Assembly: GCA_016938735.1 (NCBI GenBank) | Contig: JAFGUB010000002.1 | Location: 1 to 43,785 of the forward strand | Source: Campylobacterales bacterium | Lineage (GTDB): Bacteria; Campylobacterota; Campylobacteria; Campylobacterales; Sulfurimonadaceae | Reading direction: 5' to 3' | DNA length: 43,785 bases | Shown here: piece by piece, positions 3,226-43,785 of the stretch | Layout of the letters: each line of letters opens with the position of its first letter | Numbering within the stretch: position 1 is the first letter of the stretch | Notes under the pieces: model-generated | Seen by the model: only the letters and a program-made list of their open reading frames with translations | The model's database searches: none | What the model was told of the DNA's origin: nothing | Program-made: the position numbers and the translations under genes

Positions 3226-3741
3226 ATGTTCCAACGCTACACCCGCCTAAGCGATGCCTCTCTTAATCATCCTAGGCTGTGCGCTCTTGTTTGCTGCGGC
3301 GGCAACCTGATGGCCGCTTCGTGGCACACGCCGCTGAGCCGCGAGCCTTTTCGCTACGGTATTGCCGTTAGGGCGCAAAACGACACCCATCATCTGCTCT
3401 CAACCATCGGCCATTGCAGCCTCAATTTTTTGGATATTAGTGAATATGAGACGATCGACTACACCGGAAGCGTCCATGCCCGCGACGAATGCAAAAGCGA
3501 AGCCTGCGGGCTGGTCGCACCGACATGCGACGCCAACGCCAATCCGGTGTTCGCCTCTGCTCTGAGCGCTTTTGGATGCCGTGTGCGCGACATACTGGAG
3601 ATGGGGGATCATACCCTCTTTGTCTGCGATGTAGCGGAGATCTTCGTCAACGAGAACACGGCTCTGATGCCGACGCTCTTTATGGGGCACGGTCGCTACG
3701 CTACGCTTGGCGAGGAGCGGTTGATCGTGCCTCGCGGATAA
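3226..3741 (+). CDS. Flavin reductase-like / FMN-binding split-barrel protein
   Basis: 171 aa. The order of motifs suits the flavin reductase-like family: an N-terminal strand-rich region ending MAASWHTPLSREPF, then a FRYGIAVRAQNDTHHLL segment, and later HTLFVCDVAEIFVNE. Members bind FMN or a related flavin in a split barrel and act as flavin reductases or unknown flavoproteins; substrate and partner cannot be told from sequence. The ATG follows AAGG, which is the right arm of a TTACATGTAA copy at 3207. The 3' end overlaps the convergent SDR-DUF2867 gene by 41 nt. A flavoprotein beside an NAD-dependent SDR could be part of one redox function, but that is inference. Confidence 0.75.
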   Translation: MFQRYTRLSDASLNHPRLCALVCCGGNLMAASWHTPLSREPFRYGIAVRAQNDTHHLLSTIGHCSLNFLDISEYETIDYTGSVHARDECKSEACGLVAPTCDANANPVFASALSAFGCRVRDILEMGDHTLFVCDVAEIFVNENTALMPTLFMGHGRYATLGEERLIVPRG

Positions 3742-5137
3742 TCGCGCGCAGCATGTCCGCAAATACCAGCGCGTGGATGGGAATAAGCAGGTTCCAATAG
3801 AGCCGTCCCCAGAGTCCTTTGGGCAGAAAATAGGCGCTTTGGATCAGCCGATCCTCTTCGATGCGAAACTCCAGATAGGCTTTGCCCGGGACTTTCATCT
3901 GCGCAAAGAGCAGCACGCGCCGACGGGGCTGCACATCCACCACCTTCCAAAAATCGAGGCTGTCTCCTACGCGCAGGCTGCAGGGCAGCCGACGTCCGCG
4001 GTTTAGCCCTACCCCGCCCATGATCTTGTCTAAAAAGCCGCGAATTTCCCAAAGCCAGTCATACCCAAACCAGCCATTCTCCCCGCCAATGGCGCAGATG
4101 CGCTCAAAAACGGCCTGAACCTCATGAGAGGCTATGGGGGTTTCGCGCCGATCCATATAGACGGCGTTGGCGATGCTGTAGGCATGATCCGTCGCCCATA
4201 CGTCGCCGCCGCGATCGCTCCAGCGGCTAAGGATCTGGCGCTGCTCTACCTCTTCAAGCGCGCGCTTGACGGCTTGGGTGAAGGGCATCGGGTGAATGTG
4301 GGGAAAGAGGGTCCGGGCGTGGTCGTTTTGCACCGTCACTTCCGAGCGTAGCCCTTCGATCAGTGATTTTGCCACCGAAAAAGGCACTGGCGTAAAGAAG
4401 TTGAGCCAATACGACGAGAGGCCGATGGAGAGAAAGGGTACGGGCACGATCAGCCGATGCAGCCCCATCGCCTGTGCACATGCGACCATCATATTCTGAT
4501 AGCACATCGCCTCTGCGCCGATATCCACCACGTGTGTCCCGCCGATGCGGCGTGCGTCGTCAAGATAACACAGCACGTCCTCCACGCCGATAGGCTGCGC
4601 CATCGTGCGCACCCAGCGCGGCGTAATCATGATGGGCAGCTTCTCGATCAGATTGCGGATGATCTCGAAGCTCGCACTTCCTGAGCCGATGATCACCCCC
4701 GCGCGAAACTAGATCACGTCGATAGCGTCACTACGCGCGCTGAGCAGCTCGCCGGTTTCGATGCGGCTGCGCAGATGTTCGCTGGTGTGCTCGTTTTTGA
4801 CCCCAAGACCGCCCAGATAGACGATCCGCTTCACCCCCGCTGCAATCGCGGCGTCACGAAAGGCAACAGCGCTTTGGCGGTCTTTTTGGGCGTAGTCATC
4901 GCTTCCGAGCGAATGGATCAGGTAGTAGGCTGTTTCGATCCCCTGCATGGCTTGGCGCAGCGCTTCGGGCTCAAATGTACTCCCTTTAACGATCTGAGTC
5001 TCATCCTCCAGGTCCTGCTTGAGTGTTTCGGGATGACGCACCAGCAGCCGCAGCGTTACATTTGGGTCTGCTTGCAGGCGTTGCAGAAGCCTGCGTCCGA
5101 TGTATCCGGTTGCTCCGGTCAGCAAGATATGTGACAT
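3701..5137 (-). pseudogene. SDR-family NAD(P)-binding protein with DUF2867, interrupted by an amber stop
   Basis: A continuous reading frame of 478 codons with one TAG at 4709-4711. Before it are 142 codons: MSHILLTGATGYIGRRLL with the TGxxGxxG nucleotide-binding motif, ending at SDAIDVI. After it the same frame resumes with FRAGVIIGSGSASFEIIRNL, the expected continuation of this atypical SDR (NmrA/epimerase-like) family, then a C-terminal DUF2867 domain to the end. A single base change explains the break; there is no frameshift. ATG 5137 has AAGGAG at good spacing. The rest looks well conserved, so the mutation is recent, a sequencing error, or read through. The intact protein would be a cytoplasmic NAD(P)-dependent oxidoreductase, often found near light-response and lipid genes. 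Confidence 0.82.
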
Positions 5138-14731: not shown

Positions 14732-14821
14732 ATGAGTGCTTTGGTTCCGGTTGAGTGGATTGCTTCGATTGCGGGGATGGGTTTTATATTGCTTAGTATT
14801 ATCTGGTCTGTACCTGCGTGA
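14732..14821 (+). CDS. Small membrane peptide, 29 aa, unknown
   Basis: ATG 14732 has a perfect AGGAGG 5 nt upstream, adjoining a TACATGTA core (14713-14720). The peptide MSALVPVEWIASIAGMG followed by FILLSIIWSVPA is one hydrophobic helix. Its TGA overlaps a GTG (GTGA, 14818-14821) that is the natural start of the following SDR frame, so it may be a leader peptide coupling translation into the lipid gene cluster or a real small membrane protein. The strength of the ribosome-binding site is the main reason to believe it. No family recognised. Confidence 0.5.
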   Translation: MSALVPVEWIASIAGMGFILLSIIWSVPA

Positions 14822-15576
14822 AGGGTTAAAAAGTCTGGCTGGTCGGCGGCAGCAGCGGCATAGGATTGGCTTTGGCCGAACTGCTCTTACAAGAGGGGGT
14901 AAGGCTTTGTGTTTCTGCCCGACACGCGCAAACAAACGAGGCACTTCGAGCCTTGATTGTGCGTTTTCCGTCCACACTTTTTCTGCTTGATCTCGACGTC
15001 ACAGACACGGCGGGCACAAGCGCCGCCGCAGCGTCGGCGTGGGAGATTTTGGGCGGCATCGACTGCTGGATCTACAACGCCGGAGCTTACGAGGTGATGC
15101 GCGCCGAGGAGTGGGAGATAGAGCGCTTTGAGGCGATGAATCAGACAAATTACATGGGTGCGTTGCGGCTTGCCTGTGCCTTGATGCCGCTTTTTAAAAG
15201 GCAGGGTTATGGTCGCTGGCGTTTTAACCTCTCGCTCTCCAGTTACTTTGGCTTGCCCTACGGCGGCGGCTACTCTGCGCCCAAAGCGGCGCTGGCCAAC
15301 TTTGCCGAATCGATTCAGCCCGAACTTAAGGTGCTCGGAATCGATGTAGGGATCATCAACCATGGCTTCGTGCGTACCCGCCTCACCGCCAAAAACCGCT
15401 TCCCTATGCCCCAACTCATGAGCCCCGAAGAGGCCGCCCAAGCGATTATGAAAGGGCTCAAGCGCCCAGAGGGCTTCGAGCTGCGCTTTCCCTTTGCCCT
15501 CGCCGCTGCGCTGCGGCTGCTGCGGTTGCTGCCTTATGGCTTCTCACTGCGTCTTAGCCGCTACCTTTTGCAATGA
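14818..15576 (+). pseudogene. Short-chain dehydrogenase, stop at codon 4
   Basis: From GTG 14818 the frame reads V-K-G-stop (TAA 14827-14829) and then directly KVWLVGGSSGIGLALAELL, an intact SDR N-terminus. Downstream it keeps the NAG motif (WIYNAG), the catalytic Ser in NLSLSSYFG and YSAPK of the Y-x3-K pair, to a normal end; total 252 codons. Starting after the stop at a TTG (14866) would remove the glycine-rich nucleotide loop, and only a non-standard CTG at 14839 would keep it. CAA to TAA is the simplest explanation. The GTGA overlap with the 29-aa gene and the ATGA overlap with the transporter gene show that it is the second gene of an operon. SDRs of this class reduce or oxidise carbonyls with NAD(P). 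Confidence 0.75.
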
Positions 15577-16787
15577 ACCTGCCGCGCACCCAAAGGCTGC
15601 TCTACGCCCTTCCCGGCTTTTCACTTGCACTGCTGGGGTTACCGCTGTATATCTATTTGCCGACATTTTATGTTTCAGAGGTAGGTATCGGTATCGCTAC
15701 TGTGGGGGTGGTGTTGCTGCTTGCCCGCCTCATTGATATGCTCGCCGATCCCTTCATCGGCTATTACGCCCCGCATTGGCGCTTTTTTGGTGGAGGCTAC
15801 AGAGCCATGATGCTTTTGGGTGCGGCGGTACTTCTGGGGGCTTTTTACGCTCTGATCCATCCGCAAGGCGGGGCGTGGTGGCTCTTTGGTGCGTCACTGC
15901 TCACCTATCTTGGATGGAGTATGGTCAATGTCCCTTATCTGGCCCAAAGCGCACTTCTCTCGCATACCCCATCTGATCAAACCGCACTGGCACTGTGGCG
16001 GGAACTCTTGGGCATTCTAGGGGTGATAGTCGCGCTTGGGCTGCTTTCGGCACAAGAAGCGCATCATGCTCTGGCACTCTTGTGGCTTGTAGTGGCACTG
16101 GCTTTGCCGCCTGCGCTCTTACTCAACCGCTACGCACTTCGTATCTCTTTTCAACCCCAACCCACACGGATGCAGCATACCGATCTGGCCCGGCTGTGGC
16201 ACACCCCGAAGTTGCGTCGCTTCTTTGCGGCCTATCTGCTGAGCACCACGGCCAACGCCATTCCTGCCACCCTCTTTTTGCTCTTTTTAGAGCATGTCAT
16301 CGGCGCGCCGCAGCACGCAGGATGGCTTTTGCTGCTCTACTTCCTCTCAGGCGTTACCGCCCTTTGGATCTGGAACCGTGTCGCTTTAAGGTGGGGCAAA
16401 GAGCGTGCATGGATAGCCTCGATGGCGCTGTCGTGTCTTACCTTTGTCTGGGCGGCAACGCTTGGGCAGGGCGATCTCTACGGTTTTGTGCTCATTTGTC
16501 TGCTCAGCGGTCTAAGCGTCGGGGCCGATATGGCCCTGCCCGCAGCCATCAATGCCGACACCGCAGGAGCACTCAGTGCCGATGGCAAGGATTACGGCGG
16601 TCTACTCTTTGGATTTTTTGGAATGTGCTCTAAACTTGCCCTCTCGCTTGGGGTGGGGATTGCCTTTGGCGTGCTGGGACTTTTTGGCTTTGATGAGCAG
16701 AGTGCGCAGCCGCTTTGGGTGCTCATCGCACTCTATGCGCTCGCTCCGGTAGCGATCAAGCTAGGCGTACTTTGGCTGCTGCGCTAG
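15573..16787 (+). CDS. MFS transporter, GPH (sugar:cation symporter) type
   Basis: 404 aa, strongly hydrophobic with about 11-12 transmembrane helices. The N-terminal region LPLYIYLPTFYVSEVGIG, then LLLARLIDMLADPFIGYY, is typical of GPH-family members, which carry the D-x(3)-D-P-x-I-G loop between helices 2 and 3. It starts at an ATG overlapping the SDR stop by 4 nt. In similar clusters with FAD oxidoreductase, DUF1365 and CFA-like genes, a GPH-type transporter is also present; there the substrate is unlikely to be a sugar and may be a lipid or precursor, but this is inference. Confidence 0.85.
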   Translation: MNLPRTQRLLYALPGFSLALLGLPLYIYLPTFYVSEVGIGIATVGVVLLLARLIDMLADPFIGYYAPHWRFFGGGYRAMMLLGAAVLLGAFYALIHPQGGAWWLFGASLLTYLGWSMVNVPYLAQSALLSHTPSDQTALALWRELLGILGVIVALGLLSAQEAHHALALLWLVVALALPPALLLNRYALRISFQPQPTRMQHTDLARLWHTPKLRRFFAAYLLSTTANAIPATLFLLFLEHVIGAPQHAGWLLLLYFLSGVTALWIWNRVALRWGKERAWIASMALSCLTFVWAATLGQGDLYGFVLICLLSGLSVGADMALPAAINADTAGALSADGKDYGGLLFGFFGMCSKLALSLGVGIAFGVLGLFGFDEQSAQPLWVLIALYALAPVAIKLGVLWLLR

Positions 16788-16847: not shown

Positions 16848-17366
16848 ATGAAAACATTTGCTTCGCTTATAGCACTATCACTCACGCTCTGCGCCTTCGG
16901 GGTGTAAAATGTAGCTTATGTCGATCCGCTGCGTTTTGGCGGTTTGTGGTATGAGATCGCCCGAACCGATAACCCGTATGAGCGAAATTGCGTCGCGGCT
17001 ACGGTTGAATACACTCATATTAAAGACGATGAATTTCAAGTGGACAACCGCTGCTTTGAAGGCGAAATCGACGGCGAACGCATCCACTATCAAGGGCGTG
17101 CAAATGCCGCAGATGAGCGCAACTTCGCACGCATCGACATGACTTACTTCTGGATCTTCTCACGCCAATACCGCGTCATCTACCTCGATGCGCACTACCA
17201 AAGCGCCGTAGTAAGCGACGATAAGCTGCATCAGCTCTGGATCATGCACCGCGCACCGTTCATGCCCGAACAGACACTTGGCGCGATTCTTGCGCTTTTA
17301 GAACCCTATGGTGTCGTCGATCAACTGATCTGGACACCGCAAGACCCACAAGGAAGGTATCAATGA
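16848..17366 (+). pseudogene. Lipocalin (Blc-like), stop at codon 20
   Basis: The frame opens at ATG 16848 with a signal peptide MKTFASLIALSLTLCAFGV, then TAA at 16905-16907, then continues in the same frame NVAYVDPLRFGGLWYEIART. Lipocalins of the Blc family have exactly this layout: signal sequence, short spacer, V-x-Y-V-D-x-x-R-[FY]-x-G-x-WYEIAR, and a later LWIMHRAP. 172 codons in all. Without readthrough the mature domain could start only at a TTG (16944) and would lack the export signal. A CAA to TAA change explains the break. The stop at the end overlaps the next ATG (ATGA). Bacterial lipocalins bind lipids at the envelope and respond to membrane stress. There is no clear ribosome-binding site for the ATG. 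Confidence 0.75.
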
Positions 17367-18601
17367 ACATTGCCGTTATCGGAGCGGGCATCAGCGGGCT
17401 TGGCGTCGCGCATCTACTTAGCAAGCGCCACCGCGTCGATCTGTACGAAAAAGAGGCTCGTCTGGGCGGACATGCCCGCACCACGACGGTAGAGGAAAAC
17501 GGGCGCAGTTTCGGCGTGGATACAGGATTTCTGGTCTTCAATCACCCCACCTATCCGCTGCTCACCCGTCTCTTTGAGCAGTTACATGTCAACATCGAAC
17601 GAAGCGACATGAGCTTTGGTTTTTGGGATACGCGCAGCAACACCGCCTACAACGGCGCAAGCTTGGGCGGTCTCTTTTTCCAGAAAAAAAATCTCTTTTC
17701 CCCCGCCCACTACGCCATGATTCGCGACATCATGCGCTTTAATGCCAGAGCCCATCGTGACCTGCAGAGCGATGCTCCTGCGCTGCTTGAGTCACTTGAA
17801 GCCTACATTGTCCCCTACTCCAAAGCGTTTAAAGAGCGCTACCTGATCCCCATGGGCGCGGCGATCTGGTCTACACCCGCTGGGGAGATGGGGCGTTTTC
17901 CGGCGGGCACCTTTTTGCGTTTTTTCAAAAACCACGGGCTGCTTGGGGTGAGCACCCACCATCAGTGGCTGACCGTCTCGGGCGGATCGGCGCGCTATGT
18001 CGAGAAGATCGCCCAAAGCGTTTCGGGGAGCATTACATGTAACGCCTCCATCGTGGCCATCAAGCGTGATACGCAAGGGGTTGATCTGATCTTTGAAGAC
18101 GGATCGCGCGCACGCTACGACAAAGTGGTGCTCGCCCTACACGCCCCCGACGCGCTCGCTCTTTTGGGTAATGAGACGAGCGTTGCGGAGCGCGAGATTC
18201 TGGGTGCTTTTGGCTATAAACACAACGATGCAGTGCTCCACAGCGACGCACGAGCCCTCTACCCAGACGCGCGCATCTGGGCGGCATGGAACTACAAAAA
18301 CGGTGGAAGAGCCGACGCAGTAACCCTCTCGTACTGGATCAATCGCCTGCAAAACCTTCCCAGTCAAACGCCCTACTTCGTCTCGCTCAACGAAACGACC
18401 GACCTGGAGCACGTCATTGAGCGCATCGGGTATGAGCATCCGCAGTTTGATGCACGTGCCATCGCCGCGCAGTCGCGCTTTGATCAGATCGACGGAGCGC
18501 ATCACACCCACTTTGCGGGCGCGTATTGGCGTAACGGCTTTCATGAAGACGGTTTCTTCAGCGCCGTGCGCGTCGCCGCCAAATATGGATGTACGCTGTG
18601 A
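17363..18601 (+). CDS. FAD/NAD(P)-binding oxidoreductase, COG2907 type
   Basis: 412 aa. The N-terminal dinucleotide-binding motif is VIGAGISGLGVAHLLS followed by an acidic LYEKEARLGGHART. A characteristic FGVDTGFLVFNHPTYPLL and a C-terminal FAGAYWRNGFHEDGF with adjacent basic residues match the amine-oxidase-like COG2907 flavoproteins. This family nearly always sits beside DUF1365 and a CFA-synthase-like methyltransferase, as here, and in Rhodobacter the set is needed for unusual fatty acids formed under singlet oxygen. Likely reaction: oxidation or desaturation of a membrane acyl chain. Start ATG overlaps the lipocalin stop with GGAAGG upstream. Confidence 0.88.
   Translation: MNIAVIGAGISGLGVAHLLSKRHRVDLYEKEARLGGHARTTTVEENGRSFGVDTGFLVFNHPTYPLLTRLFEQLHVNIERSDMSFGFWDTRSNTAYNGASLGGLFFQKKNLFSPAHYAMIRDIMRFNARAHRDLQSDAPALLESLEAYIVPYSKAFKERYLIPMGAAIWSTPAGEMGRFPAGTFLRFFKNHGLLGVSTHHQWLTVSGGSARYVEKIAQSVSGSITCNASIVAIKRDTQGVDLIFEDGSRARYDKVVLALHAPDALALLGNETSVAEREILGAFGYKHNDAVLHSDARALYPDARIWAAWNYKNGGRADAVTLSYWINRLQNLPSQTPYFVSLNETTDLEHVIERIGYEHPQFDARAIAAQSRFDQIDGAHHTHFAGAYWRNGFHEDGFFSAVRVAAKYGCTL
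18033..18042. repeat. TTACATGTAA copy
   Basis: Read as Thr-Cys-Asn (ITCNAS) in the COG2907 oxidoreductase. Confidence 0.9.
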
Positions 18602-19338
18602 GCCACCGCTATATCGAGGGGCAGATTATGCATCAGCGGCTTGTCCCCTTGCGCCACGGTTTTACCTACGACTACTTTTTTCTCGATATCGATCTCCAAA
18701 GCCTCTCGACACTCAAGCACCGCATGTTTTCGCATGGAGCCTTCAACTGGATGGGTTTTGATGCACGTGACCATTTCGGCTCAAGCAGCGATCTGTTCCA
18801 AAATGCCCAAGCGCTTTGCCGCAGCTTTGATCTGGATGAGACCCTGCCGATGCGTTTTGTCACGCTGCCGCGTATTGCTGGGTTTGTCTTTAACCCTATC
18901 AGCCTGCTGCTGCTGATGCACCAGGACCGCCCGCGTCATCTGCTCGCCGAAGTACACAACTACAACGGCGGACGGGTGATCTATGAAGTACCCCTTACAT
19001 GTAAGGATTCGGGTCTGTGCCAAGGCGAGGCGCGCAAATCGATGTATGTCTCCCCTTTTTTCGATTATGAGGGGTGTTACCGCTTTGATTTGCGCTACGA
19101 CGAAGAGGGAATGGAGCTAAAGCTACTGCTCGAACGCGACGGGACGCCTCAACTCTTAGCCCACTTTAAAGGCGCGTCGCTCCCCTTTGAGAGCCGCTCT
19201 ACCCGCGCACTTTTGTGTCGGCATACCTTTTTGAGCCTCTTTGTCGTCACACGCACGCTGTGGCAATCTTTGCGACTTTGGCGTAAAAAACTGCCGTGGC
19301 ATTCGCCGCGCAGCATCGATCAAATTAGGAGGTTTTAA
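18589..19338 (+). CDS. DUF1365 family protein
   Basis: About 249 aa. Segments SHRYIEGQIMHQRLVPLRHG, YDYFFLDIDLQSL, RFVTLPRIAGFVFNPISLLL and AEVHNYNGGRVIYEVPL are the conserved blocks of DUF1365. Function unknown; it is a constant companion of COG2907 flavoproteins and CFA-like enzymes and is expected to take part in acyl-chain modification. The start is uncertain: ATG 18589 (13-nt overlap with the upstream gene) or GTG 18598 (GTGA overlap). Neither has a clear ribosome-binding site, so translational coupling is likely. It is followed directly by the CFA-like gene. Confidence 0.88.
   Translation: MYAVSHRYIEGQIMHQRLVPLRHGFTYDYFFLDIDLQSLSTLKHRMFSHGAFNWMGFDARDHFGSSSDLFQNAQALCRSFDLDETLPMRFVTLPRIAGFVFNPISLLLLMHQDRPRHLLAEVHNYNGGRVIYEVPLTCKDSGLCQGEARKSMYVSPFFDYEGCYRFDLRYDEEGMELKLLLERDGTPQLLAHFKGASLPFESRSTRALLCRHTFLSLFVVTRTLWQSLRLWRKKLPWHSPRSIDQIRRF
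18995..19004. repeat. TTACATGTAA copy
   Basis: Extended to CTTACATGTAAG. Read as Leu-Thr-Cys-Lys in DUF1365. Confidence 0.9.
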
Positions 19339-20565
19339 ATGCACGCTCTGGTTCAAAAATTCGCTTCTCGCTACTTGGGTAAGATCACTCAGGGAGCCTT
19401 ACATGTACGCTACAAAGACGGTACGTCGCAGCACTACGGCGACCCTGAGGCACAGCCTATCGACTTGCGGATTCATCACAACCGCTTCTTTACACGCATC
19501 ATGCTTTATGGCGATATCGGTTTTGCCGAGAGCTATATGGACGGTGATTTTGACGCAGATGATCTTGAAGGACTGATCCGTTTGGCCATTGAGAACTCTA
19601 AAGTTTTAGGTGCGCTTAGCGGGGATGAAAAACGCTTTCGCTTGAGCAATCTTCTGCCTTTGAGCAACCGTATTCATCATCTGATGCGGCGCAACTCCCG
19701 CACCAGAGCACGTAAAAACATTGCGCAGCACTACGACCTCTCCAACGATTTTTTCGCCCTGATGCTCGATCATACAATGATGTACTCCGGCGCGGTTTTC
19801 GCGCACGCTCACGAGCCCTTACATGTAGCCCAAGAGCGCAAAATCAGACTCATGGCCGATCGCTTGCGGCTGCGACCGGGCTCTAGGGTGCTTGAGATCG
19901 GCTCGGGTTGGGGGGCGATGGCGCTGCATCTGGCCAAAGAGCGGGGTGTTGAGGTAGTGAGCCTGACGCTCTCCAAAGAGCAAAAAGCGCTGTGCGAAGC
20001 GCGTTTTCGCGCCCACGACGTTGCGGGGGCGGCGGAGGTGCTGCTGTGTGATTACCGCGATATGCAAGGCAGCTTTGATGCCATCATCGCGGTGGAGATG
20101 TTCGAGGCGGTCGGGCAGGAGTACTTCGCTGCCTTCTTTACAAAGTGTGAAGCACTGCTAAAGCCCCATGGCGTGATGGCGATGCAGGTGATCACGATGC
20201 CCGATCACCGCTATGAGCGCTACGCCAAAGGGGTCGATTTCATCCAGAAATACATCTTCCCCGGTGGGCATCTGCCGAGCCTGGCCCGAATCTTGCATAC
20301 GACACAACGCCATACGCGGCTAGAGCTTTTGGAGATGCAAGAGTTTACGGAGGATTACGCATTAACGCTGCGCCTTTGGCGCGAGAACTTCGAAGCCAAG
20401 ATCGATAAGGTCAAAACGCTGGGCTTCGATGAGACCTTTATACGCATGTGGCGGCTCTATCTGTGCTACTGCGAAGCAGCCTTTGCGACGCGCCAGATCC
20501 ACCTGGTTCAGCTCGCTTTTAGCCGCGATAACAACGTCTCACTTCATAACAAGGTTGCCGCATGA
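19339..20565 (+). CDS. Cyclopropane-fatty-acid-synthase-like SAM methyltransferase
   Basis: 408 aa, about the size of E. coli Cfa (382). An N-terminal lipid-binding region with GDIGFAESYMDGDFD precedes the methyltransferase core: VLEIGSGWGAMALHLA binds S-adenosylmethionine, followed by VEMFEAVGQEYF and QKYIFPGGHLPS. AGGAGG is well placed for the ATG. Compared with E. coli Cfa as I recall it, two bicarbonate-site residues are changed: C139 becomes G151 (YSGAVF) and H266 becomes Q283 (MQVITM), while E239 (E256) and Y317 (Y340) are kept. The bicarbonate base is used in cyclopropane ring closure, so this enzyme may instead methylate an acyl chain, as in furan or branched fatty-acid formation. It acts at the inner membrane. 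Confidence 0.88.
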   Translation: MHALVQKFASRYLGKITQGALHVRYKDGTSQHYGDPEAQPIDLRIHHNRFFTRIMLYGDIGFAESYMDGDFDADDLEGLIRLAIENSKVLGALSGDEKRFRLSNLLPLSNRIHHLMRRNSRTRARKNIAQHYDLSNDFFALMLDHTMMYSGAVFAHAHEPLHVAQERKIRLMADRLRLRPGSRVLEIGSGWGAMALHLAKERGVEVVSLTLSKEQKALCEARFRAHDVAGAAEVLLCDYRDMQGSFDAIIAVEMFEAVGQEYFAAFFTKCEALLKPHGVMAMQVITMPDHRYERYAKGVDFIQKYIFPGGHLPSLARILHTTQRHTRLELLEMQEFTEDYALTLRLWRENFEAKIDKVKTLGFDETFIRMWRLYLCYCEAAFATRQIHLVQLAFSRDNNVSLHNKVAA

Positions 20566-21095
20566 AACTCAAAACCCTCTTTACACTGGGTCTGTGCACC
20601 CTACTTGGCGGCTGTAGCTCGATGCAGATCGAAGATTTTAAAGGCGCTACTCCAGAGTTTGTGCCGCAGGAGTACTTCAACGGGCCGATGAAGGCCTACG
20701 GAATGGTCAAAGACCGCAGCGGCAAGATTACGCGCCGTTTTACGGGAACGATGGTGGGAAGCTGGGACGCGCAGGGCGTCGGCACCCTCGATGAACACTT
20801 CATCTACGACGACGGAGAGGAGCAGCGCCGCACCTGGACGATGCGCCCTGACGGTGCGCGGCGCTACCTCTGCAGCGCGGGCGACATCATCGGCGAAGCT
20901 CCGATGCGTTTTGAGGGCAATACGGTGGTGCTTGACTATACGATGCGTGTCCCTTATAAAGGCTCGACCATCGATTTACAGGTGCGCGACTGGCTGCATC
21001 TGCAAGCCGACGGGGTGATTTTGAATCACTCAAAGATGACAAAATTCGGCTTCGAAGTAGGGGAATTGGTGATTACGATCATCAAGGAATCATAG
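20562..21095 (+). CDS. DUF3833 family lipoprotein
   Basis: 177 aa with a lipoprotein signal peptide MKLKTLFTLGLCTLLGGC and lipobox LGGC. The mature part matches DUF3833: YFNGPMKAYGMVKDRSGKI, a repeated strand pattern and QVRDWLHLQADGVILNHS, then a GFEVGELVITI end. A small lipocalin-like barrel of unknown ligand is expected at the envelope. It starts by an ATGA overlap with the CFA-like gene and closes the cluster. DUF3833 genes are common members of such lipid-modification clusters. The likely end of the operon is just after 21095, but no strong hairpin is visible. Confidence 0.85.
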   Translation: MKLKTLFTLGLCTLLGGCSSMQIEDFKGATPEFVPQEYFNGPMKAYGMVKDRSGKITRRFTGTMVGSWDAQGVGTLDEHFIYDDGEEQRRTWTMRPDGARRYLCSAGDIIGEAPMRFEGNTVVLDYTMRVPYKGSTIDLQVRDWLHLQADGVILNHSKMTKFGFEVGELVITIIKES

Positions 21096-25093: not shown

Positions 25094-27289
25094 ATGGTGC
25101 CATTGGATCGATCCGCTTCTATTGAGATTGCCGCTTATCAAGAGCAGCTCGAAGCCCTCAATACGCTGGTGGTGGAGCTGCAAGGTGAGCTTCAAAGTCA
25201 GCATCAGCACATCGAAATTCTCGAAAACGACCTGCTGTCTCAAAACAACGGCGTGTCGATCGACTATCGCATGGTTTTTGATGCTTCACCTATGCCGATG
25301 CTGCTGCTCGATCATCACGGCATTATCGAAAGCCTCAATGTAGCAGCCGTAGGTTTTTTTGAGCTGCCGCAAAGTCAGCTGATCGGCCGATCGCTACGCT
25401 CTTTCTTGTCGCGCGTCTGCTTCACCGATTACACGCTCAAACTCAAGCATCTACGCGACTCTACAGAGCTGCTGCAGCAGTTTCACCATCTGCAACTGCG
25501 CAACGAAAAGCCCTTTGCCCTGATGCTTAAAAAGCTCTCCATGCCTGGCGGTCATGAAGAGAAGATATTGGGTCTTATCAGTGACTTTTCGAGCTCCAGC
25601 GTGCAGCAGTTTGATTATCTCTCGAGGGTAGTGATCGAGCAGTTGCGCGAAGCGGTGCTCATTACCGACAATGAGGGTACGATTTTACTCGTCAATAATG
25701 CCTTTACGGAGATCAGCGGCTACAGTCGAGACGAGGCGCTGGGACAAACACCTAAAATGCTCAAATCAGGCCGCCACAGCGAAGCGTACTACCGCTCAAT
25801 GTGGGAGCAGATCGAACACCACGGCTGGTGGGCGGGGGAGATCTGGAACAAGCGCAAAAACGGCCAAATCTACCCCGAATGGCTTCAGATCAACCGTATC
25901 ACGGAGCCGGTCACACACAAGCGCTACTACGTGAGCACCTTTAGTGATATCACCGAGCGCAAAAAACATCAAAATAACCTTGACCGCATGGCCCACTACG
26001 ACACCTTGACGGGGCTCATGAACCGCAGTTTTCTCAAGATCTCCTTGGAGACGATGCTGGAGCGCCGACGCGAAGAGCACGCCAGTAAGCTGGCCCTGCT
26101 CTTTTTGGATCTCGATCACTTCAAGCAGATCAACGACCGTTACGGTCACCACGAAGGCGATCTCGTCTTGCAAGAGGCAGGGCAGCGTCTATTGGCTTCG
26201 GTGCGCAACTATGACTTGGTGAGTCGGCTGGGCGGGGATGAGTTTGTCGTGGTGATTCCCCGCTACGACTCCCTTGTGCAGCTCGAGCAGATCGCACGAA
26301 AGATTATCAATACGCTCTCGATGCCCTTTCGCTTCCATGAAAACGCCCATCATGTAGATGCCTCTATAGGTATTGCCCTCTATCCCGAGCACGGCGACAA
26401 TGTGGACGATTTGATGAAACGCGCCGATACCGCGATGTACCGCGCCAAAGCACTGGGGCGCTGCCGTATGGCCTTTTTTGACCACTCGGATGAAAGGGAG
26501 TTGATTGTCAAGGATGAGATCAAAGTGCTGCTACGCAGCGCCATTGATCATCCGGCAACAAAAATTGAAGTGCATTATCAACCCATTATTTCGGCACAAA
26601 CACTTGAGCTGCACTCCATCGAAGCGTTGGTGCGCTTGCGTGATGCAAGTGGAGCGCTGGTTTACCCCGATCTATTTATCACCACGGCAGAGCAAGAGGG
26701 GCTGATCGTGGCGCTTGGTGAGGCGATTTTTGATCAAGTTTGTCTCTTCGTTGCCGAGAATGACGCACTGAGGTTACGACAGGTTCCCGTCGCTGTAAAC
26801 CTGTCGGCATTGCAGTTGTGCGATGAGACGCTGATGAATCGTCTAAACGAGATCACACATCGCCACGGCTTGGGGCTGGGTCGGTTTGAGTTTGAAGTAA
26901 CCGAGACGGCGGCGATGCAGCATCTTGACACCATCCTCTCTACAATCAACGCACTTACCTTGCACGGCTGCGAGATCTTGCTGGATGATTTTGGTACCGG
27001 TTTTGCGTCGCTTTCGCAACTGCACAATATTCCGGTTGATTACGTCAAGATCGACCGCAGCTTCACGATGCAGATGGAGAATGATGAACGCTCCAAAGCG
27101 ATGGTTGAAGCCATGCTGGCGATGAGTGAAGCGCTGAATTTGCAAACGATCGTCGAAGGGGTTGAAACGGAGTCTCAGCAGAAGCTGCTATGCCAAATGG
27201 GGGCGACGTATCTACAGGGTTATCACTTCTCTCGACCGATTGGCAAAGAGCTGCTGCGCGAACGGTTTTTACGATCAGATGAGACGTGA
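25094..27289 (+). CDS. PAS-PAS-GGDEF-EAL cyclic-di-GMP protein
   Basis: 731 aa from ATG 25094, with GGAG 7 nt upstream and 4 nt after the CheB-CheR stop. An N-terminal coiled coil (about 10-50) leads to PAS at about 55-170 and 190-310. GGDEF is at about 315-480 with SRLGGDEF and RNYD inhibitory site. EAL is at about 490-730 with IEALVRL, VNLSALQL, EVTETAAM, DDFGTGFAS, YVKIDRSF, VEGVET and QGYHFSRP, so both activities appear intact. The open frame extends about 33 codons upstream inside the previous gene, but that part is not used. The 3' end overlaps the convergent phytochrome gene by 15 nt. Operon partner of CheB-CheR, suggesting a linked output. Confidence 0.92.
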   Translation: MVPLDRSASIEIAAYQEQLEALNTLVVELQGELQSQHQHIEILENDLLSQNNGVSIDYRMVFDASPMPMLLLDHHGIIESLNVAAVGFFELPQSQLIGRSLRSFLSRVCFTDYTLKLKHLRDSTELLQQFHHLQLRNEKPFALMLKKLSMPGGHEEKILGLISDFSSSSVQQFDYLSRVVIEQLREAVLITDNEGTILLVNNAFTEISGYSRDEALGQTPKMLKSGRHSEAYYRSMWEQIEHHGWWAGEIWNKRKNGQIYPEWLQINRITEPVTHKRYYVSTFSDITERKKHQNNLDRMAHYDTLTGLMNRSFLKISLETMLERRREEHASKLALLFLDLDHFKQINDRYGHHEGDLVLQEAGQRLLASVRNYDLVSRLGGDEFVVVIPRYDSLVQLEQIARKIINTLSMPFRFHENAHHVDASIGIALYPEHGDNVDDLMKRADTAMYRAKALGRCRMAFFDHSDERELIVKDEIKVLLRSAIDHPATKIEVHYQPIISAQTLELHSIEALVRLRDASGALVYPDLFITTAEQEGLIVALGEAIFDQVCLFVAENDALRLRQVPVAVNLSALQLCDETLMNRLNEITHRHGLGLGRFEFEVTETAAMQHLDTILSTINALTLHGCEILLDDFGTGFASLSQLHNIPVDYVKIDRSFTMQMENDERSKAMVEAMLAMSEALNLQTIVEGVETESQQKLLCQMGATYLQGYHFSRPIGKELLRERFLRSDET

Positions 27290-28744
27290 AAGTTGTCGCA
27301 GAAACTTCATGGCACTGGAATGCTCGAAACTGTTAAAGCTCTTGGCGTAGCCGCGCCGCTCTTCAATCCATTTTTCAAATGAACGTCTTGGTGAGAGCAT
27401 GAGCGCTCCGGCATCTTCAATCACCGGTTTGTTGGGGTTGCCCGCCCAGGCATAGGCTTCGATCGTCTCGTCGCGAAACCAGTAGCAGCGTTTGTACTCC
27501 CCGCCTTGAAACACCTTGGCCGCCAAAACACCCAAGGGCCCAAGATAGTGTCCTGAGATGAATCGATCGTGCACCAAGGCATTGGAGTGCAGCAAAGGCG
27601 CTTCGTATTGCGTCAAAAAGTAGGTGTCGAGCTGTTTAAAAGCAGTGGCATCAGGGGTGTTGCCGATAGCGTAGGCTTGTTGACGGTCACAATAGATAAA
27701 TCCGTCGGCATCCACGAGCTTCAAAATGGCGTCGCCATTGGCCACCAGACTCGTGTGTGGATCGTGCTCTTTGTCAATCGATTTGATCAGAGCGCCGATC
27801 ACAAACTCGATTTCATCGTAGTAGCGCATTTTGTGCAGGGCGAAAAAGTTACGCAAACCCAACTCAAAGGTTTTGGTGAGTTTGACGCATCGGTGTCGGT
27901 TGCTGCTGCCTAGGTGCCTTGGGACGAGGTGGTGGGCGGCAAGCAGCCCCCACAGTTCGTTACCGATGATGATGGGGATGGAGAACGAGGCGCGTACGCC
28001 CATATGGGTGAGGTACTCGATATGAATCGGCGAAACACTACGGGTGTCGGAGTAGGTCAGATCGAGGCTTTGATCGCGCTTGGAGATGATGCCAATCGGC
28101 TCTACTTGGGTATCGCAGATGGTGCGCGATGGGTTGAGCATATAAAGATCACGGGCAATTTTGGGAATATCGGAGGCGGGAAAGCGCAGATTCATATAGC
28201 TACCCATGGTGCTACGCGCCGATTCGGTGATCACCTTGCCACTGAAATCCTCTTGAAACTGATAGAGCAGCACCCGATCGTAGCCGCACAAATGGGCGAT
28301 GTGCGTGACGTATTGATTAAAATAGTGCTGCAGATCATTTTCGTGTTGCGGCGCGAAAAAGATATCGAGATTTTCAAACTGTCTGGGGGTAAAGTGCTCT
28401 TGCTGATACTCTTCAATATCAAATATAAAACCCCCTCCACTGCGGCTGAGTTTGACCTCGACGCGCCGCTCGCTCAGACGCAGCGCGGCGTAGTGAAAGG
28501 GCTTTTCGTCTAACGAAAAAGTCTCCAGCAGCGGGACAAACTCGGGAAGAGCGTCAAGCAGTGAGCGTTCAAGCAGTGACTCGGGGGTTTGGCCCAAAAA
28601 GGCAGCGCAGTTGGCGCTGACATGGGTGATCTGCCCATCATGCACACCGATGAGCGCACCGAAGGGTTGAATGGCACCTGAAAGGTGCAGCTTTTCGCTT
28701 TCGCAACCTAAAACGAGCTGCTCCATAGTGGGGGTAGTCTGCAT
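27275..28744 (-). CDS. Bacteriophytochrome photosensory module (PAS-GAF-PHY) without output domain
   Basis: 489 aa. C14 lies in the GCESEKLHLSGAIQPFGAL stretch where bacteriophytochromes attach biliverdin. PASDIP at 189-194 supplies the key Asp192; H241 and H271 match the two chromophore-pocket histidines, and the PHY tongue has YAWAGNPNKP and LSPRRSF. The family His in IQPHG is Phe here and IHxPG is LHLSG. The protein ends about 35 residues after the PHY tongue, so no kinase, GGDEF or other output domain is present. GGAGG (28750-28754) places the start at ATG 28744. A red/far-red light sensor that must signal through a partner. No heme oxygenase gene is in the window. A TATAAT at 28767-28772 (minus) may be its -10 box. 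Confidence 0.9.
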   Translation of the reverse strand: MQTTPTMEQLVLGCESEKLHLSGAIQPFGALIGVHDGQITHVSANCAAFLGQTPESLLERSLLDALPEFVPLLETFSLDEKPFHYAALRLSERRVEVKLSRSGGGFIFDIEEYQQEHFTPRQFENLDIFFAPQHENDLQHYFNQYVTHIAHLCGYDRVLLYQFQEDFSGKVITESARSTMGSYMNLRFPASDIPKIARDLYMLNPSRTICDTQVEPIGIISKRDQSLDLTYSDTRSVSPIHIEYLTHMGVRASFSIPIIIGNELWGLLAAHHLVPRHLGSSNRHRCVKLTKTFELGLRNFFALHKMRYYDEIEFVIGALIKSIDKEHDPHTSLVANGDAILKLVDADGFIYCDRQQAYAIGNTPDATAFKQLDTYFLTQYEAPLLHSNALVHDRFISGHYLGPLGVLAAKVFQGGEYKRCYWFRDETIEAYAWAGNPNKPVIEDAGALMLSPRRSFEKWIEERRGYAKSFNSFEHSSAMKFLRQLSRLI

Positions 28745-28855
28745 CATCGCCTCCGAAGAAAAAAGCATTATAGCCCAAAATACAACCAACCGACATGTGC
28801 GCGCTACCAAAACAATGTGTTCCCCCATACAATGTCACAAATCAAAAGGATCGTG

Positions 28856-43555: not shown

Positions 43556-43785
43556 GTTTCAATCTGTACCCAGCCGGGTGGCTGGGTGATACCTCGCTGC
43601 TAACCCTTGCATCATCACGAGTACTTGTTTCAATCCGCACCCAGCCGGGTGGCTGGGTGATACTTGTTTCGATTGCTGATTTTTTAGGTTTGGATTATGT
43701 TTCAATCCGCACCCAGCCGGGTGGCTGGGTGATACCGGCGCGCCTACGTTTGCAAACTTTGTCAAGATGGTTTCAATCCGCACCC
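43556..43785 (-). CRISPR. CRISPR array, leader-distal end
   Basis: 37-bp repeats at 43556-43592, 43627-43663, 43699-43735 and a partial copy at 43770-43785, separated by spacers of 34, 35 and 34 nt. The full repeats at 43627 and 43699 are identical; the one at 43556 has two substitutions. On the minus strand the repeat ends in ATTGAAAC, the common 5' handle of type I-B/III-like crRNAs, and contains a 9-bp stem CACCCAGCC...GGCTGGGTG. Transcription from right to left and a degenerate repeat at the left end fit a trailer end, with leader and cas genes beyond the window. Open frames inside are artefacts of the repeats. Confidence 0.95.

Follow-up and report, generated by a model that had tools for sequence, protein, structure and literature searches.

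In a campylobacterial cluster of lipid-modification genes, a single base substitution appears to have introduced an early stop codon into the gene for a lipocalin. A ribosome starting at the ATG at 16848 would then make no more than 19 residues, so that just a piece of the signal peptide would be produced and no lipocalin exported, and the gene would be a null allele or a young pseudogene among other genes of the cluster that are open. Scattered, recent nonsense changes of this sort would also have hit genes for a short-chain dehydrogenase (SDR), a DUF2867 protein, a nitric oxide reductase, a chemoreceptor, a reverse transcriptase and a PhoD-type phosphatase, and neither a shared pathway nor recoding would be required for the stops. 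We consider it probable that these are scattered and recent single-base nonsense alleles and that the lipocalin product is lost; the stops themselves, the homology that runs across them, the intact relatives and the variety of stop codons and genes are observed, and what we infer is that the assembly shows the true base at each stop and that no lipocalin is made. The window, that is, the whole stretch of 43,785 nucleotides analysed, contains the following genes of interest:

3701-5137, minus strand: NAD-binding/DUF2867 gene at a separate locus, with TAG at 4709-4711 (Pfam, class relatives, same-genus genome)
14818-15576, plus strand: SDR gene with TAA at 14827-14829; its GTG start and the stop codon of a small ORF overlap (Pfam, sequence, relatives)
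15573-16787, plus strand: MFS_2 transporter gene, open (Pfam)
16848-17366, plus strand: interrupted lipocalin gene, consisting of signal-peptide stretch, stop and mature domain (sequence, Lipocalin_2 profile, relatives)
16905-16907, plus strand: in-frame TAA of the lipocalin gene (sequence)
17363-18601, plus strand: FAD-dependent amine-oxidase-type gene, open (Pfam, relatives)
18589-19338, plus strand: DUF1365 gene, open (Pfam)
19339-20565, plus strand: cyclopropane-type fatty acyl methyltransferase gene (CMAS), open (Pfam)
20562-21095, plus strand: DUF3833 gene, open (Pfam)

A first-pass annotation had reported three single in-frame stops without frameshift, and three such stops are present: the lipocalin TAA at 16905-16907 and, as the two that fit its description of the other cases, the TAA at 14827-14829 and the minus-strand TAG at 4709-4711. 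It had also placed the lipocalin TAA between the signal peptide and the mature domain, which is confirmed. From ATG 16848, 19 codons of signal-peptide character (MKTFASLIALSLTLCAFGV) lead to the TAA, and past it the frame continues (NVAYVDPLRFGGLWYEIAR...) for 152 open codons up to the terminal stop at 17364-17366. This second part matches Lipocalin_2 (PF08212) with an E value of 1.6e-29 over profile positions 2-146 of 146, scores 103.2 bits against a curated cut-off of 24, and includes the G-x-W motif within this full match. A frameshift at the TAA is ruled out, the frame being the same on both sides and the relatives aligning with no insertion or deletion between the stop column and the conserved motif. 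An alternative start that would rescue the domain is likewise ruled out: no in-frame ATG, GTG or TTG lies between the TAA and the TTG at 16944, which is the first candidate. This TTG codes for Leu in the conserved G-L-W motif, and initiation there would therefore remove the beginning of the domain. The signal peptide has no evident lipobox. A second lipocalin of this genome (contig C30, 3790-4191) is open, 32% identical and lipoprotein-like, with an LLGCS lipobox-like motif.

Loci of relatives were found by scanning genome contigs with the neighbouring FAD protein, and 80 were kept. Fourteen of these are campylobacterial, with FAD matches of 64-68% (Sulfurovum, Sulfuricurvum, Sulfurimonas, Arcobacter and Campylobacterales). 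A lipocalin is present at 12 of the 14 cluster loci (the copy at L024 is clipped by the end of its contig), and no stop was seen inside the lipocalin matches of these loci. At the other two, L030 and L032, no lipocalin was found, which indicates that the gene can be lost. For the N-terminal comparison, further loci were added to the 14, giving 22 loci that represent 17 distinct lipocalin N-terminal regions. In none of the 17 does the TAA column hold a stop. Sixteen are open from an in-frame Met, and the remaining one (L252) lacks such a Met and may start elsewhere. Since the frame continues past this column in 17 distinct relatives, a chance origin of the frame is irrelevant. The alignment thus marks the gene as a predicted nonsense pseudogene, with a stop where the homologues have sense codons and with no other start that would restore the domain. 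The column itself is occupied by Q (four relatives), L (three), K, N and P (two each) and S, T, I and A (one each), and the codon is one step from TAA in 6 of the 17, by three kinds of codon. The original base is not readable from so poorly conserved a column.

The TAA of the SDR gene is the fourth codon from its GTG start. The corresponding column in 12 campylobacterial SDRs holds K in five, L in four, Q in two and S in one, and this variability likewise makes the ancestral base unreadable. As a frameshift alternative, we considered the slip of one base in the short run of A that follows 14827. By eye it was judged less likely, because the different frame that it would join lacks the 29-codon ORF led by a Shine-Dalgarno sequence. 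This ORF (14732-14821, MSALVPVEWIASIAGMGFILLSIIWSVPA) stands ahead of the SDR gene, is preceded by a strong AAGGAGG, overlaps the SDR GTG with its stop, and looks like a single-span membrane peptide. Among the relatives, the SDR of L021 was rejected as a broken gene, its short match coming from masked N and not from mutation, and so was DUF1365 of L024 and L031, in which the counted stops fall at codon 2, upstream of the Met that starts the conserved part. Downstream of the lipocalin, the start of the FAD gene and the lipocalin stop overlap (ATGA), and AAGGAAGG precedes that start. This gene, with its own likely ribosome-binding site, need not be lost and can probably still be made.

The DUF2867 gene tells most about its stop. 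Of 14 relatives from the class, 13 have Trp at the TAG column and one has Cys. A same-genus genome, G001 (74% complete), encodes a DUF2867 protein that is 91% identical, open past the stop point and with Trp there. The amber codon is therefore read as a Trp codon changed by a G:C-to-A:T transition. The first-pass annotation had described all three stops as consistent with C-to-T, with G-to-T also possible for the amber, and this is poorly supported: the amber transition is C-to-T on the other strand only, and the lipocalin and SDR columns are variable. A simple home-written count against G001 gave dN/dS values of 0.078 before the stop and 0.040 after it, at a near-saturated dS of 1.6 and 1.2, respectively. 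As far as such a comparison reaches, strong purifying selection shows on both sides of the stop. The gene was thus kept for nearly all of the divergence from G001, and the TAG is recent, tolerated or an error; purifying selection alone does not prove loss of function. G001 is informative only for this gene, because it gave no match for the lipocalin or the nitric oxide reductase fragment described below, its FAD matches are weak and its SDR is distant.

We measured decay as departures at otherwise invariant alignment columns. The mature lipocalin domain departs at 2 of 25 such columns, within the range of the 16 other rows (0 to 8), and thus shows no visible decay past the stop. The SDR shows no departure at its 38 columns; the DUF2867 part has 7 at 127 columns, where the other rows have 0 to 4. 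By this measure the interrupted genes seem free of visible decay, with DUF2867 perhaps a slight exception. An intact downstream frame is equally expected if the stop is a consensus error or is tolerated. The main rival reading, which we hold to be unlikely, is that the consensus is wrong at the stops, or shows there the base of a minority strain in a mixed assembly, and that the genes are intact in the organism. The downstream frames with little or no decay, the strong selection on both sides of the DUF2867 stop and an assembly split over 62 contigs would all agree with it; however, single-base substitution errors seldom survive in the consensus of short-read assemblies.

The two interrupted cluster genes have their stops 2.1 kb apart and make up two of the seven recognised genes of the cluster. 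This could hint at relaxed selection there, which the model of scattered alleles does not require. In such a case the accessory SDR and lipocalin genes would be decaying together under relaxed selection on the whole lipid cluster, a situation that we find very improbable. The absence of the lipocalin at L030 and L032 and of both SDR and MFS at L032 is in its favour, as is the MFS gene, which is open and unusually divergent, with the most departures among the window genes compared (16 at 92 invariant columns). However, the MFS, FAD, DUF1365, CMAS and DUF3833 genes are all open at full length, the FAD protein departs at just 4 of 193 invariant columns, and the DUF2867 gene and further interrupted genes lie outside the cluster.

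To these further genes we turned with a home-made codon-usage detector, applied outside the window to 630,918 bases (22% of the genome, mostly contig starts and the surroundings of tRNA genes); its count covers in-frame stops only. The detector catches only one of the three window stops, because it needs at least 20 upstream codons. It gave 33 candidates without a Shine-Dalgarno start, or 36 when the model was trained without the window. Pfam was run on 12 of the 33, and four have the stop within one domain match:

L172, 6635-8866: nitric oxide reductase gene, TGA inside COX1 (Pfam)
L193, 2525-3964: chemoreceptor gene, TAG inside MCPsignal (Pfam)
L185 (contig C46), 2119-3270: reverse transcriptase gene, TGA inside RVT_1 (Pfam)
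L194, 3900-5747: PhoD-type phosphatase gene, TAA inside PhoD (Pfam)

In the other Pfam-run candidates the stop lies at most five residues from the domain end (L183), or at or just ahead of a domain match that begins mid-profile (L186 and L208), and five gave nothing decisive; the 21 candidates beyond these 12 were inspected by eye. The reverse transcriptase of L185 may, judged by eye, be of the diversity-generating type. As controls, 400,000 bases of a one-contig relative (G010) gave 17 candidates, with no stop inside a domain in the seven that were run against Pfam, and 210,094 bases of G014 gave three candidates with the detector alone. The difference of four against none between the source genome and G010 does not reach significance (p about 0.07, from a simple exposure split done by hand). 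The first-pass annotation had suggested counting interrupted genes over the genome and had named relaxed selection on one pathway as a possible shared cause. The sample did yield four further domain-internal stops, though in unrelated types of gene and with mixed stop codons. As to the single pathway, the SDR and lipocalin genes do share a cluster, but DUF2867 lies apart from that cluster, on the opposite strand, and the genes interrupted elsewhere are unrelated. The unrelated kinds of gene and the use of all three stop codons argue against both one pathway and one reassigned codon.

The decoding machinery is in accordance with this. Two release-factor genes of the RF-1 family (PF00472) score over the cut-off in the genome, so the loss of a release factor that recoding would involve is not observed. 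Long open frames end with TAA 91 times, with TGA 86 times and with TAG 63 times; no single stop codon lies systematically within coding frames, and TAA, TAG and TGA each interrupt and end genes. No stop-reading anticodon occurs among 38 tRNA matches (one of them partial, at a contig end), a list that is incomplete, as Pro, His and Ile tRNAs are missing from it. Readthrough or a suppressor tRNA, which had also been put forward as a shared cause, finds no evidence in these genes and in this incomplete set of tRNAs. It is highly unlikely, in our view, that low-level readthrough still yields functional lipocalin, SDR and DUF2867 proteins: the base after the stop is A for both TAA codons and T for the TAG, TAA is generally the tightest terminator, and none of the 17 distinct relatives shares the lipocalin stop. 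The frames conserved downstream of the stops would be compatible with readthrough, and a survey of interrupted bacterial genes (PMC7918605), in the part that we drew on, makes the case that function can survive some in-frame stops in bacteria. Readthrough is without positive support here, and we give hardly any credence to the broader idea of leaky termination, in which the lineage would tolerate many in-frame stops and the secreted lipocalin would be made at a low, regulated level through its stop. The annotation ought to flag the genes for the lipocalin, the SDR and the DUF2867 protein as interrupted, and recoding should not be argued from this genome. If the stops are true, the genome offers a modest example of numerous young nonsense alleles in genes that are otherwise conserved.

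Scattered nonsense alleles of this kind resemble the nonsense-interrupted bacterial genes described in the portion of PMC7918605 considered here, in having a single in-frame stop, flanks that both align cleanly, all three stop codons and varied types of gene. In that portion, the survey needs the same stop in at least two genomes, whereas no second genome sharing the stop was found here. The cluster recalls, by domain types alone, the furan fatty acid (ufa) operon of Rhodobacter sphaeroides as presented in the part of PMC7380195 that we used: FAD-dependent desaturase-like, DUF1365 (UfaO family) and fatty acyl methyltransferase types occur in both, and the cluster in the window additionally has MFS, lipocalin and DUF3833 genes. 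Our search for literature linking DUF1365 with cyclopropane and a lipocalin returned none. Two other features of the window were recorded. Two CRISPR-DR9 repeats (RF01322) lie at 43627-43735 on the minus strand, near the contig end, and a CRISPR array may therefore extend past the contig. At 27275-28828, also on the minus strand, the gene for a phytochrome-like protein with PAS_2-GAF-PHY architecture and no kinase domain match adjoins a GGDEF/EAL gene, in a genome that looks campylobacterial.
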